From Vibrio astriarenae (lineage in GTDB: Bacteria > Pseudomonadota > Gammaproteobacteria > Enterobacterales > Vibrionaceae): 64,000 bases of DNA. The notes under the pieces are model-generated. The model worked only from the letters and a program-made list of their open reading frames with translations. It was not told the origin of the DNA and ran no database searches. The stretch's first letter is position 1, and each line of letters opens with the position of its first letter. This document shows, piece after piece, positions 27,621 through 38,347 of the stretch. The translations under genes and the position numbers were made by a program. The stretch is from the NCBI RefSeq assembly GCF_010587385.1, contig NZ_CP047476.1, forward strand, positions 1 through 64,000. The letters are read 5' to 3'.

Positions 27621-28211
27621 TTAATTAATCTGGCTAGCGAGATCTTCACGTTGAGGTTGGGGGATCACAGTCCAGTGTGTGCCGCGAATCGCCCCTTCCA
27701 GTGAATAGAGTAGCTCAAGGCTAACCGGTGTTGTGTGCGACTCTTGTATCGCTTGATAAGCTCTCACCGCTCCCGCTTCTTCTAGTTGAGTCACAGTCTC
27801 GATTCCAGCTTTTTTTAGCATTCTCTCTGTTGCAAGACGAAGGTTAGGGAGATCTTTTAAACGTTGAGGCTTCGTTGTTTCTTGCTTCACTTTATCAGCA
27901 ACAGCCGCTTTGAGAGCGGTAGTTGCTACCGATAGAAGGCGCGCAGGCTCATTGACCCACGAATCAGGTAGCTGGAAGTATTTAGTGACGACAGGAAAGC
28001 CCCGCTTCTCATAAACATAAGGCTCGAGTTCGTGTTGAGAGATCGCAGTTTCTAGGTCAGCACACTTACGAACGTGTAGCTTGTTCTTCACGACCAATGC
28101 AAACATTGTGTCATTGACGAATATGCCAAAGCCACCAAACATTGATCGTGACTTGACAGTGCCAAGTTGCTCGAATAAGCGCATCGAGTCTTTTAAAATT
28201 GGTTTATCCAT
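27621..28211 (-). CDS. tfoY: TfoX/Sxy-family regulator TfoY
   Basis: Regulator of 196 residues with a TfoX N-terminal domain (about 1-95; SRSMFGGFGIFVNDTMFALVV) and a TfoX C-terminal domain (about 110-190; LKDLPNLRLATERMLKKAGI). Sequence alone could fit either Vibrio paralogue, TfoX or TfoY. The c-di-GMP-I aptamer upstream and purR as the next gene match V. cholerae VC1722 (tfoY), so I call TfoY. In vibrios TfoY drives motility and type VI secretion at low c-di-GMP, whereas TfoX drives chitin-induced competence. The leader between aptamer and ATG is about 107 nt. Confidence 0.9.
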   Translation of the reverse strand: MDKPILKDSMRLFEQLGTVKSRSMFGGFGIFVNDTMFALVVKNKLHVRKCADLETAISQHELEPYVYEKRGFPVVTKYFQLPDSWVNEPARLLSVATTALKAAVADKVKQETTKPQRLKDLPNLRLATERMLKKAGIETVTQLEEAGAVRAYQAIQESHTTPVSLELLYSLEGAIRGTHWTVIPQPQREDLASQIN

Positions 28212-28318: not shown

Positions 28319-28429
28319 CCATCGGCAACCCCGCTACCTTTCCTGAATAATATCATAGTTATGAATAAAATTCTGATTAAGGCCGGAAGCTTTGCGTCCC
28401 ATCTTTTCAAATGGTTTGCCCTGTGCGTG
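28319..28429 (-). ncRNA. c-di-GMP-I (GEMM) riboswitch upstream of tfoY
   Basis: On the minus strand the aptamer begins CACGCACAGGGCAAACC and continues with GGGACGCAAAGC, CTTCCGGCCT and GGTAGCGGGGTTGCCGATGG. These blocks agree almost base for base with the V. cholerae Vc2 aptamer, including the GAAA tetraloop arm. The arm between CCGGCCT and GGTAGCGG is about 20 nt longer and AT-rich compared with Vc2. It controls tfoY in response to c-di-GMP. Whether control is by translation or by termination at the CCTTT/AAAGG hairpin near 28280-28300 cannot be read from sequence. Confidence 0.96.
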
Positions 28430-34934: not shown

Positions 34935-34965
34935 AGGCGTCAAACCGAAAGGTTGGCGCCTTTTT
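34935..34965 (+). terminator. terminator of the nitroreductase gene
   Basis: AGGCGTCAAACC pairs with GGTTGGCGCCT (one bulge/wobble) around GAAA and runs into TTTTT. Confidence 0.88.
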
Positions 34966-35041
34966 ATTATTTTGAATTTTGTCTTTCCAAATCATTAACT
35001 GCGTTTATAATATCGTTTCTTGATTGTAACGCGGATTTGTC

Positions 35042-35509
35042 GTGCTTAAATTAGCCCGTAGACTTTTTGTCATGTTGGCCATGATGCTGAGCTTCTTTGC
35101 TTCAGCGGCTTCATTGCAGCTAGAGTTTATGGCGTCACCGACACAATCATTGGTCTCTTTGGGCATCGAGCAAGTCGATATCGCCGCCAGCGACCAAGCC
35201 GATGCGGTCTCTTCAGAGAGCGAATCACAAGATGGTTATCTGTTTTTGGACGCAGGTTCAGAAGCTTGTTTACCCAACTCTCGCCGTGTATTAAGCATGG
35301 ATGAGGTTGCCACCAAGGGCGAAAAACCCGACTATTTCCTCGTTATCTCATTTCAATCTCCCGATCCGCTCGCGTTCGCGCGATTAGCTGACTTTGACCC
35401 GCACTTCGCTCCAAGCTGGGAGTTTTCTGCCTCTGACCAAAACCTCCGACTTGGCGGCTGGAAAGAGAGCAACCTACAATACCGTTTCCTTCAATCCTCT
35501 CTCGTTTAG
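35042..35509 (+). CDS. vemP: VemP, secretion-monitoring translation-arrest peptide
   Basis: Protein of 155 residues starting at GTG. It has a clear Sec signal peptide (LARRLFVMLAMMLSFFASA-A), a polar middle, and near the end HFAPSWEFSASDQ followed by LRLGGWKESNLQ, with Gln at residue 146. This layout, length and position upstream of secD2 match V. alginolyticus VemP (159 residues, stalling at Gln156). VemP stalls its own ribosome unless its nascent chain is pulled by active SecDF, thereby regulating secD2/secF2. Nine residues remain after the predicted stall. The codons just after it (35493-35501) can pair with the secD2 Shine-Dalgarno. Confidence 0.88.
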   Translation: MLKLARRLFVMLAMMLSFFASAASLQLEFMASPTQSLVSLGIEQVDIAASDQADAVSSESESQDGYLFLDAGSEACLPNSRRVLSMDEVATKGEKPDYFLVISFQSPDPLAFARLADFDPHFAPSWEFSASDQNLRLGGWKESNLQYRFLQSSLV

Positions 35510-35645
35510 GTCAGTACCTACAGCCCAGCTGTAATTGACTTATTCAAACCCTGACAGTGAATTTCTAGCGTCCTTCGTTTACGAAGTGTCTTATTATGCT
35601 TGTACGTCATGGTTTGACTCTACCCCTCATCTTATTGAGAAGATT
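35493..35645 (+). promoter_or_regulatory. stem masking the secD2 ribosome binding site, opened by VemP stalling
   Basis: AATCCTCTC (35493-35501, inside vemP codons 151-154) can pair 4+4 bp around one mismatch with GAGAAGATT (35637-35645), which contains the secD2 Shine-Dalgarno GAGAAG, 9 bases before the ATG at 35652. A ribosome stalled with the Gln146 codon (35477-35479) in its active site would cover roughly the upstream arm and free the Shine-Dalgarno. The intervening 135 bases may add further structure. Confidence 0.65.
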
Positions 35646-35651
35646 AGATAA

Positions 35652-37445
35652 ATGAGAAACAAACAGACCAAACACGTCATTAACCGCAATCGGTACTGGC
35701 ACTACTTTACGCTTGCCTTGTGTGTGCTTTTAATGGCGTTGAGCGCATTGCCATCATGGTATGGTGAAAATGCGGCATTACATGTCTCTACAAGAGGCGA
35801 TGCTACGCTCGATGCAACCCAAGTTGCCAACGTACTCGCCTCTCACAACATCGACACTAAACAGATTACCCAGCAAGATAATCGTGTGGTTGTTACGTTA
35901 GAAAACCCAGAACAGCAGGCTTTGGCACAAGCAGAGTTAGCAGACACTCTACCGGAAGGGGCAACGATTGCCCTTGCATCGGAACCAGCTGCCCCTCAAT
36001 GGTTACTTAACCTCGGTTTTAATCCTGTTAAATTGGGATTGGATCTGCGTGGCGGCGTACAGTTCCTGTTAGACGTCGATATGGAGCCTGTGTATCAGGC
36101 ACATCGTCAAATGGTGATTGACGATCTCACATCAGAACTGTCTCGCGCTCGTGGTCGAGTGGTAGGAGATAGTGCGCAAATTACGCTTCGAAGCGATGCT
36201 GACGCGAGTGAATTGCGACGTTTAGCAAGAGAGCGCTTTCCAAATTGGCAATTGACTGGCTCAGATAGACAATTTCAACTGTCGTTATCAACAGAAGAGC
36301 AAAATGAGCTGCGACGCTTAACGGTAATGCAGAACCTACAAATAATGCGTAGCCGACTCACCGAGCTAGGGATTACCGAAGCGTCTGTGCAACGCCAAGG
36401 AGAGAATCGTATTCGTATTGAGTTGCCGGGCGTCCAAGACCCTGCAGCGGCGAAGGATGTGATTGGTGCTACGGCATCACTGGCATTTCACTCGGTGCCA
36501 AATACCGTCAATCGTGACTCTTTAGTGATTGACGACCAGCAAGGGCAACCTGTCAGCGTATCACGCCGTGCTGTATTGGGTGGTGAGCATATTGTTGATG
36601 CACGCGCTGGCGTGGGTGAGTTTGGTGACGCTGAAGTGAATATCAGTTTAGATGGACTAGGCGGTCGAAAAATGGCGAACTTCTCCCGTCAGAACATCGG
36701 TAACCCTATGGCGACGGTGTATAGCGAATACAGTCGTGCTCAAGATGGTTCGAGTGAGAAAAATAGCGAAGTGATCAGTGTGGCGACGATTCAATCACAG
36801 CTAGGTAACCGCTTCAGAATCACGGGTATTGGCACGATGAATGATGCTCAAGAGCTGGCTCTTCTTTTGCGTGCTGGCTCGCTGACTGCGCCTGTGACCA
36901 TTGTTGAAGAGCGTACAATTGGCCCTTCTCTTGGTGCTGAGAACGTGAAGAATGGCTTTGCTGCACTAGCGTTAGGTTTGGGGATTACGTTTACCTTCAT
37001 CGCACTTTGGTATCGTCGTCTTGGTTGGGTGGCAAACGCGGCATTGCTGACGAATATGGTGATGTTGTTTGGACTCATTGCTTTGTTGCCCGGTGCGGTG
37101 CTAACGCTACCTGGTATAGCAGGGCTGGTTCTAACTGTAGGTATGGCAGTAGATACCAATGTACTTATCTTCGAGCGTATTAAGGATAAAATGGGTGAGG
37201 GGCGCACCTTTGCAGCTTCAATTGATAGAGGTTTCCAGAGTGCATTCTCGTCTGTCTTTGATGCCAACTTAACCACCATGATTGTCGCGATAGCACTTTA
37301 CGCTATCGGTAATGGGCCTGTTCAGGGGTTTGCGTTGACACTTGCCTTAGGTCTATTGACCAGTATGTTTACTGGTATTTTTGCTTCAAGAATCTTGATC
37401 AATACGATTTGGGGGCGTGATCAACGCCGAGATGTGAGGGTGTAA
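35652..37445 (+). CDS. secD2: protein translocase subunit SecD (second, VemP-controlled copy)
   Basis: RND-family membrane protein of 597 residues that, with SecF, uses ion flow to pull proteins across the inner membrane. It has an N-terminal helix (about 17-33), a large periplasmic P1 region with the signature LGLDLRGGVQFLLDVD near 132, and five C-terminal helices with ALGLGITFTFIALWYRRLGW, TVGMAVDTNVLIFERIKD and GFALTLALGLLTSMFTG. The Asp in AVDTN is the conserved ion-path residue. The VemP leader identifies it as the regulated SecDF2 set; the main copy (with yajC) is elsewhere. Confidence 0.93.
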   Translation: MRNKQTKHVINRNRYWHYFTLALCVLLMALSALPSWYGENAALHVSTRGDATLDATQVANVLASHNIDTKQITQQDNRVVVTLENPEQQALAQAELADTLPEGATIALASEPAAPQWLLNLGFNPVKLGLDLRGGVQFLLDVDMEPVYQAHRQMVIDDLTSELSRARGRVVGDSAQITLRSDADASELRRLARERFPNWQLTGSDRQFQLSLSTEEQNELRRLTVMQNLQIMRSRLTELGITEASVQRQGENRIRIELPGVQDPAAAKDVIGATASLAFHSVPNTVNRDSLVIDDQQGQPVSVSRRAVLGGEHIVDARAGVGEFGDAEVNISLDGLGGRKMANFSRQNIGNPMATVYSEYSRAQDGSSEKNSEVISVATIQSQLGNRFRITGIGTMNDAQELALLLRAGSLTAPVTIVEERTIGPSLGAENVKNGFAALALGLGITFTFIALWYRRLGWVANAALLTNMVMLFGLIALLPGAVLTLPGIAGLVLTVGMAVDTNVLIFERIKDKMGEGRTFAASIDRGFQSAFSSVFDANLTTMIVAIALYAIGNGPVQGFALTLALGLLTSMFTGIFASRILINTIWGRDQRRDVRV

Positions 37446-37447
37446 CA

Positions 37448-38347
37448 ATGAAACGATTGATTAATTTGAGCAAGATTCGTTTTGGCATGTCAGTGATCTC
37501 TTTGGCTTTGGTGCTAGGTGCCCTCGTCACTATCGTATTTAAAGGCTTTAATTGGGGACTAGACTTCACTGGCGGTGTGGTGAGCGAGTTCCAAGTAGAG
37601 CACGCATTAACGGCAGATGAGATTAAACAGACGTTTGATCAAGTGCTTGGGCAAGAGGTCCAACTCACACAATCTGGCGAGAGTGGCCGATGGTCTGTTC
37701 GCTACAGCCAGCCGGAAGGTGAAATGCAATCGATAGGAGAGATCCTGTCGTCCCTGCACACTAATGTCAAAGTGCTCAATAGCAGCATCGTTGGCCCACA
37801 AGTGGGTCAGGATATGGTGGAAAAAGGCGGCCTAGCTGTGTTGAGTTGTATCATTCTCACCATGCTTTACTTGAGTTGGCGCTTTGAGTGGCGTTTGGCT
37901 CTGGGCGCTTTGAGCGCACTTGTTTACGATATTGTGTTGGTGCTTGGCCTGTTCTCTCTTACGGGTTTAGAGTTTAACCTTACTGTATTGGCGGCTGTTT
38001 TGGCTGTGCTGGGTTACTCACTTAATGACTCAATCATTATTGCAGACCGCGTAAGGGAGTTGTTTAAAGGTAACCCGAACGGCAATACTGGTAAGCTGAT
38101 TGATTCGGCAGTGATGGCGACCTTCTCAAGAACAGTGATTACATCAGGAACGACATTCGCGACTGTAGCGTGTTTGTGGTTGCTAGGGGGCGCGCCTTTG
38201 CAAGGATTTGCGATAGCCCTGTGCTTCGGTATCGTGAGTGGTACTTGGTCATCAATATCGGTGGGGGTGACACTGCCTCAGCTTATCGGTTTGAAGCCTG
38301 AGCACTACATCGTAAGAAAAGATGAGTATGAAGAGGAGTACCCTTAA
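37448..38347 (+). CDS. secF2: protein translocase subunit SecF (second copy)
   Basis: Membrane partner of SecD, 299 residues, starting two bases after the secD2 stop. The N-terminal helix is followed by the SecF motif GFNWGLDFTGGVV, a small periplasmic domain, and five helices with VYDIVLVLGLFSLTGLEFNLTVLAAVLAVLGYSLNDSIIIADRVRE, which holds the conserved Asp/Asn pair. The RTVITSGTTFATVACLWLLGG segment is typical of SecF. Confidence 0.95.
   Translation: MKRLINLSKIRFGMSVISLALVLGALVTIVFKGFNWGLDFTGGVVSEFQVEHALTADEIKQTFDQVLGQEVQLTQSGESGRWSVRYSQPEGEMQSIGEILSSLHTNVKVLNSSIVGPQVGQDMVEKGGLAVLSCIILTMLYLSWRFEWRLALGALSALVYDIVLVLGLFSLTGLEFNLTVLAAVLAVLGYSLNDSIIIADRVRELFKGNPNGNTGKLIDSAVMATFSRTVITSGTTFATVACLWLLGGAPLQGFAIALCFGIVSGTWSSISVGVTLPQLIGLKPEHYIVRKDEYEEEYP

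Follow-up and report, generated by a model that had tools for sequence, protein, structure and literature searches.

The first 64,000 nucleotides (nt) of contig NZ_CP047476.1 of Vibrio astriarenae (GCF_010587385.1), here termed the window, carry an ordinary but sequence-divergent copy of the known Vibrio VemP-secDF2 device: vemP (35042–35509), secD2 (35652–37445) and secF2 (37448–38347), all on the forward strand. We interpret this locus as a feedback operon in which arrest of VemP translation near codon Ser153 would free the secD2 start, and put the probability of this reading at roughly 80%. A preliminary description of the same DNA had recognized VemP, linked it to a second SecDF pair, and placed the stall at Gln146. 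The identity is upheld by profile homology and the arrest motif, and the link by homology, gene order, and a stem over the secD2 start that ribosome stalling could open; the coordinates, 155-residue length and gene order it gave are exact. Its stall site, by contrast, has to be corrected.

The vemP gene encodes a putatively secreted leader peptide of 155 residues that starts at GTG (the coordinates include the stop codon). Inspected by eye in translation, the N-terminus shows a basic n-region (KLARR) together with a hydrophobic stretch and a cleavage-like site rich in Ala, and so forms a putative signal peptide of approximately residues 1–23 (35042–35110). Alignment and a motif scan place the arrest-motif anchor at R136-LGG-W140-K141-ES-N144-LQ-Y147 (35447–35482). 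A published survey sought such monitors upstream of sec and yidC genes, its criterion being an RxxxWKxxNxxY-like motif in an upstream open reading frame (uORF) with a localization signal (PMC10987492; this and the other papers are cited here from excerpts of their text). The exact pattern occurs in only 1 of the 252 stop-to-stop open reading frames (ORFs) of at least 60 residues in the window. Moreover, a profile of 50 secD2-linked VemPs, built without the window peptide and its nearest relative, detects the window ORF at 1.4e-24, the next window ORF scoring 0.17, and still detects the body of the peptide when motif and tail are removed (1.5e-14) and when the signal peptide is removed as well (8.9e-08). 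General resources were less informative: the peptide has no match in Pfam or NCBIfam, PDB sequence searches gave none for either the full peptide or its last 49 residues, although a VemP–ribosome structure, 5NWY, exists (PMC8887479), and a scan of genome contigs returned one distant relative. Features reported for VemP include a short hydrophobic segment three residues before Arg85, plus a (hydrophilic)xP motif (PMC11470409); the window body has R81/R82 and hydrophobic stretches, with no clear match to these features by eye.

The genes that follow are equally clear. SecD2 matches NF009545 (E=1.6e-277) and SecF2 matches TIGR00966 (E=8.6e-78); 142 nt separate vemP from secD2, and secF2 starts two bases after secD2. 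The other contig of the same genome carries tgt-, yajC-, secD- and secF-type genes (yajC and tgt named by eye), of which the housekeeping SecD is 44% identical to SecD2. The window pair is therefore the second secDF of this genome, as previously proposed, standing apart from a yajC-secD1-secF1 cluster, and the genome has one vemP copy.

In V. alginolyticus VemP, a protein of 159 residues, arrest occurs with Gln156 in the P site and Phe157 in the A site, and 17 of the 19 arrest-window residues are important (PMC5449182). The residues named for it (R139, W143, K144, N147, Y150, L153, N154, Q156 and F157; PMC5449182, PMC8887479) fit the 159-residue class I sequences in our set (e.g. locus L087). 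Their alignment with the window peptide is gapless in this part and equates Q156 with Ser153, F157 with Leu154 and M149 with Gln146. The glutamine singled out in the preliminary description (codon 35477–35479), which had suggested alignment with characterized VemPs as a check, thus corresponds to Met149 and is not homologous to Gln156. A stall near the Ser153 codon (35498–35500) is instead predicted, both from this alignment and from the folding described below.

To place these residues in the family, positions are given relative to the anchor arginine (R), so that Ser153 is R+17. Across 52 secD2-linked VemPs, the anchor never varies at R, W, K or N and has F for Y once; the set was collected by a pattern requiring K, N and Y/F/H at R+11 and limiting R and W, so these columns are conserved partly by construction (the first screen of loci required W[KR]xxN only). 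At R+17 the set has Q in 18 sequences, A in 7, and S, R and L in 6 each; with Gln in just 18 of 52, this residue does not define the VemP family. The last residue falls at R+17 to R+20 in 48 of the 52. The anchor in the tunnel and its spacing from the stop codon are kept, and the residues near the catalytic centre have been exchanged between clades.

Folding of the vemP end together with the secD2 start predicts a stem between the last vemP codons (35500–35508), which act as a putative anti-start arm, and the secD2 start region (35649–35657), with pair probabilities of 0.38–0.87; the fold of 35470–35700 exceeds 197 of 200 shuffles in stability (z −2.67). We modeled a stalled ribosome as hiding RNA up to 15 nt downstream of the first base of the P-site codon. 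The cost of opening the start region is then 8.3–10.0 kcal/mol for stalls at codons 128–143, 11.2–11.3 kcal/mol at codons 144–148, and 6.4–7.8 kcal/mol from codon 149 onward. A ribosome at Gln146 (11.2 kcal/mol) would leave the stem intact, as compared with 7.1 kcal/mol for a stall at Ser153 and 9.3 kcal/mol for unstalled RNA, and when the 21 nt between these two footprints are shuffled, the native opening cost at Gln146 is reached in 0 of 60 cases. In this model, the secD2 start is sequestered by RNA that a ribosome stalled at codon 149 or later would open in part.

Related loci were assessed in the same way, with a drop defined as at least 2 kcal/mol between R+10 and R+17; these and all later locus counts come from related genomes and do not represent independent events. 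The drop is present in 42 of 56 secD2 loci and in 11 of 16 further loci lacking an assigned start, which were added later under a looser rule (53/72 overall), and the native segment exceeds 95% of shuffles in 38/56 and 9/16, respectively. Loci without a motif match (L109, L110, L115) or over the gap limit (L104, L130–L132, L141) were left out of the drop counts, which include one locus with a broken vemP frame (L044) that is absent from the switch-point counts. The switch could be placed in 50/55 and 14/16 secD2 loci, and lies at R+11 to R+17 in 55 of these 64, earlier in 6 and later in 3; the rule compares offsets 4–10 with 13 onward and so leans to that interval, which the shuffle control does not. 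In the nearest relative of the window peptide (L036), the corresponding vemP codons pair upstream of the start codon, with bases −11 to −4, rather than with the start codon itself; as the arm is kept but its partner is shifted, this is not base-pair covariation.

These data suggest the following cycle. The VemP nascent chain would be targeted to SecYEG, where normal pulling by SecDF1 would allow translation to complete; the last vemP codons would then re-pair with the secD2 start and keep secDF2 low. When export is slow, the R136/W140/K141/N144/Y147 anchor would hold the chain in the ribosome tunnel and translation would stop near Ser153, the stalled ribosome covering 35500–35508, such that the secD2 start is freed and SecDF2 can be made. 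Pulling would be what relieves the arrest, and low sodium, an inducing condition taken from studies of V. alginolyticus, would be a natural trigger; a Na+-driven SecDF1 and a Na+-independent SecDF2 are known for V. alginolyticus only (PMC5449182, PMC11470409).

The locus resembles that of V. alginolyticus in its putatively secreted leader before secD2-secF2, in its C-terminal R/W/K/N/Y anchor with identical spacing, and in a stem at the secD2 start that can be disturbed by ribosome stalling (PMC5449182, PMC11470409). It differs in its length and in its diverged body; in addition, Ser occupies the P-site position, Gln replaces Asn at R+15 and Leu replaces Phe at R+18. Like the SecM-secA and MifM-yidC2 pairs, it combines an exported or inserted leader with a late arrest, both predicted here, that frees a downstream start (PMC10987492); those systems possess other arrest sequences and other downstream genes, and we claim no homology to them. 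ApdA/ApdP and RQH-type leaders likewise include uORFs that precede a second secDF, but the RAPP-like C-terminal motif reported for them (PMC10987492) is absent from the window peptide by eye. Beyond correcting the predicted stall site, a VemP this divergent, in which Ser takes the P-site position, could help to separate the share of the arrest code held by the tunnel anchor from that of the catalytic-centre side.

Several observations weigh against arrest near Ser153 with release of secD2. A profile built from 20 V. alginolyticus-type sequences alone finds the full peptide (9.3e-08) but not its body (0.3), indicating that the body has diverged far. The P-site position carries Ser in place of Gln, with further differences from V. 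alginolyticus at R+15 and R+18. A stall at Ser153 gains just ~2 kcal/mol over unstalled RNA and raises the start region's mean unpaired fraction only from 0.45 to 0.49, local structure remaining, so the predicted opening is partial; the drop is also not seen in 19 of the 72 secD2 loci. The changed residues (R+15, R+17 and R+18) and the partial opening could be expected of a VemP relative that no longer arrests, with secDF2 expressed by other means. We regard such a loss as improbable, given that the anchor is intact, that the arm is specific against shuffles, and that L036, although only 59% identical overall, has the same last 20 residues but one. Within the last 24 codons of this pair, the ratio of nonsynonymous to synonymous substitution rates (dN/dS) is 0.12, at a synonymous rate (dS) of about 1.1.

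The position of the stall is a separate matter. If the end of the peptide has changed, a VemP-type arrest might sit at another late codon (149–155) or at the stop codon: clades differ in the residues by the catalytic centre, the peptide of some relatives stops at R+16 to R+18, and the start region opens about equally for every stall from codon 149 onward. The anchor-to-stop distance is nonetheless well kept, as expected if the stall distance is kept, and we consider a shifted late stall rather unlikely. A P site at Gln146 has in its favor that Gln is the P-site residue in V. alginolyticus and that the start opens no later than R+10 in 6 of the 64 secD2 loci where a switch could be placed; however, this Gln is aligned with the wrong residue, falls between N144 and Y147 of the conserved anchor, and leaves the opening cost at its high value, making a stall there highly improbable. 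Arrest near Ser153 therefore remains the reading we prefer.

Upstream of vemP lies a nitroreductase gene (PF00881) that ends, by eye, in a hairpin followed by a T-run near 34936–34966, and so vemP probably has its own promoter. A promoter-like site with 10 of 12 matches (34984–35011, forward strand) would suit this role, but such sites occur at chance number in the region. By the rule used here, the start codons of the 52 secD2-linked vemP genes, including that of the window, are ATG in 24, TTG in 22 and GTG in 6, from which vemP may often be weakly initiated.

The distribution of vemP depends on the query. The window peptide alone matches in 66 of 196 same-genus genomes, its own included, whereas a 36-sequence alignment, which contains the window peptide and many of the searched genomes' own copies, matches in 157/196 same-genus genomes and in 168/197 genomes of a family sample, covering 9 of 13 genera. 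SecD2 matches at 1e-160 or better were found in 153/196 same-genus genomes. Sixty secD2-like loci, picked from the matches listed to span the identity range and thus not random, were fetched and read upstream: a W[KR]xxN ORF lies just upstream of secD2 in 52, and no such ORF lies upstream of the secD2-like gene in the other eight (L056–L063). These eight form one SecD group, 63–65% identical to the window SecD; chaA lies 1.1–1.25 kb downstream on the same strand, and the gap would fit a secF. Extra vemP copies were guessed to adjoin another secDF, which proved wrong for L096–L105; further extra copies (L111–L114, L118, L125) do precede secD2.

Homologs of VemP were also found ahead of genes other than secD2. 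A gene for a ChaA-type Na+(K+,Ca2+)/H+ antiporter directly follows vemP in six loci (L097, L103, L107, L126, L127, L128), a degenerate VemP peptide precedes a ChaA-type gene in L115, and L104 and L105 hold chaA remnants. The ChaA proteins of L097 and L103 score above the cut-off of PF01699, and match NF007895 at 2e-96 and 5e-93 but below its cut-off; the other ChaA-type genes match L097 by tblastn at 62–74% identity. A DedA-type protein with a VTT domain is encoded immediately downstream of vemP in L129; in L130, L131, L132 and L141 a small ORF intervenes. PF09335 was matched in L129 and L132. VemP stops at R+16 in L131, L132 and L141, short of the Gln156 equivalent. In a further 12 loci (L096, L098–L102, L108–L110, L116, L117, L124) vemP is followed by a gene for a small exported-looking protein, for which the two proteins tested (L102, L104) matched no family above cut-off; among these 12, the motif is lost in L109 and L110 and the vemP frame is broken in L116 and L117.

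The homology of these leaders extends beyond motif and signal peptide. Stripped of both, the profile built only from secD2-linked VemPs finds ChaA-linked L127 (6e-18) and L103 (7.2e-09), DedA-linked L129 (7.2e-18) and L132 (3.1e-12), and small-protein-linked L098 (7.7e-10). The full profile, unfiltered, gives chance-like matches on opposite-strand ORFs down to 3.6e-05, so that the degraded copies (L115 at 1.5e-07, and pieces of L116 and L117) are weak evidence. In eight same-genus genomes (G024, G035, G181, G148, G166, G034, G051, G082) vemP, secD2 and chaA stand in line, with chaA beginning 902–905 nt after secD2, the spacing of one secF, and in G282 (L145) secF2 was read between secD2 and chaA. 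In G169, secD2 and chaA are partial; in G055, the beginning of vemP and the end of secD2 share one reading frame. After chaA, a dedA homolog comes next in G181, G148, G166, G035 and G282, and G268, G290 and G273 have vemP-chaA-dedA without secDF. The window genome itself has no chaA match, including at 1e-60, where 37/196 same-genus genomes have one, and its best dedA match, at C2:662742, is far from vemP.

VemP ahead of an antiporter and a DedA-type protein suggests that the reach of export-sensing arrest may go beyond the export machinery. We therefore considered whether VemP could be a portable sensor of export (sodium force) heading ion-homeostasis operons of the Vibrionaceae, rather than a dedicated SecDF2 regulator. 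If so, VemP stalling would turn on ion pumps along with, or instead of, the backup export motor. This proposal is tentative and, on balance, we doubt it; wider use of VemP beyond secDF2 is a lead, not a result. That the vemP genes outside sec loci are dead leftovers is weakened by dN/dS values of 0.11–0.31 in seven of nine pairs, but dS exceeds 1 in five of these. By class, the three DedA-linked pairs give 0.14–0.31, the two ChaA-linked pairs 0.22 and 0.44, and three small-protein-linked pairs 0.11–0.17, with 0.6 for a fourth; the pairs at 0.44 and 0.6 are nearly identical and say little. The small-protein-linked peptides drift at the anchor, with W changed to R in 3, and R to H in 5, of 20 non-sec rows.

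A start-site switch shared with the secD2 loci was sought at these loci and is not supported. The drop of at least 2 kcal/mol occurs in 0/6 ChaA, 2/10 small-protein and 0/1 DedA loci, and the native segment lies above 95% of shuffles in 1/6, 1/10 and 0/1, respectively. With the small ORF before dedA taken as the target, the drop appears in 1 of 4 loci (L132, 9.1 to 5.1 kcal/mol), whose segment is not above shuffles (0.13). Terminator-like elements between vemP and the next gene were found in 0/6 ChaA, 0/5 DedA, 0/10 small-protein and 5/56 secD2 loci. As the switch is mostly absent at non-sec loci, the mechanism of a portable sensor would have to differ. No VemP paper naming ChaA or DedA appeared among the matches listed in the main texts of the open-access literature.

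Elsewhere in the window, a cyclic di-GMP (c-di-GMP) riboswitch of the c-di-GMP-I-GGC family (RF03167, 64.7 bits) lies on the reverse strand at 28320–28429, upstream of a TfoX-domain gene at 27621–28211 (PF04993, PF04994). A c-di-GMP riboswitch before tfoY is known in vibrios.

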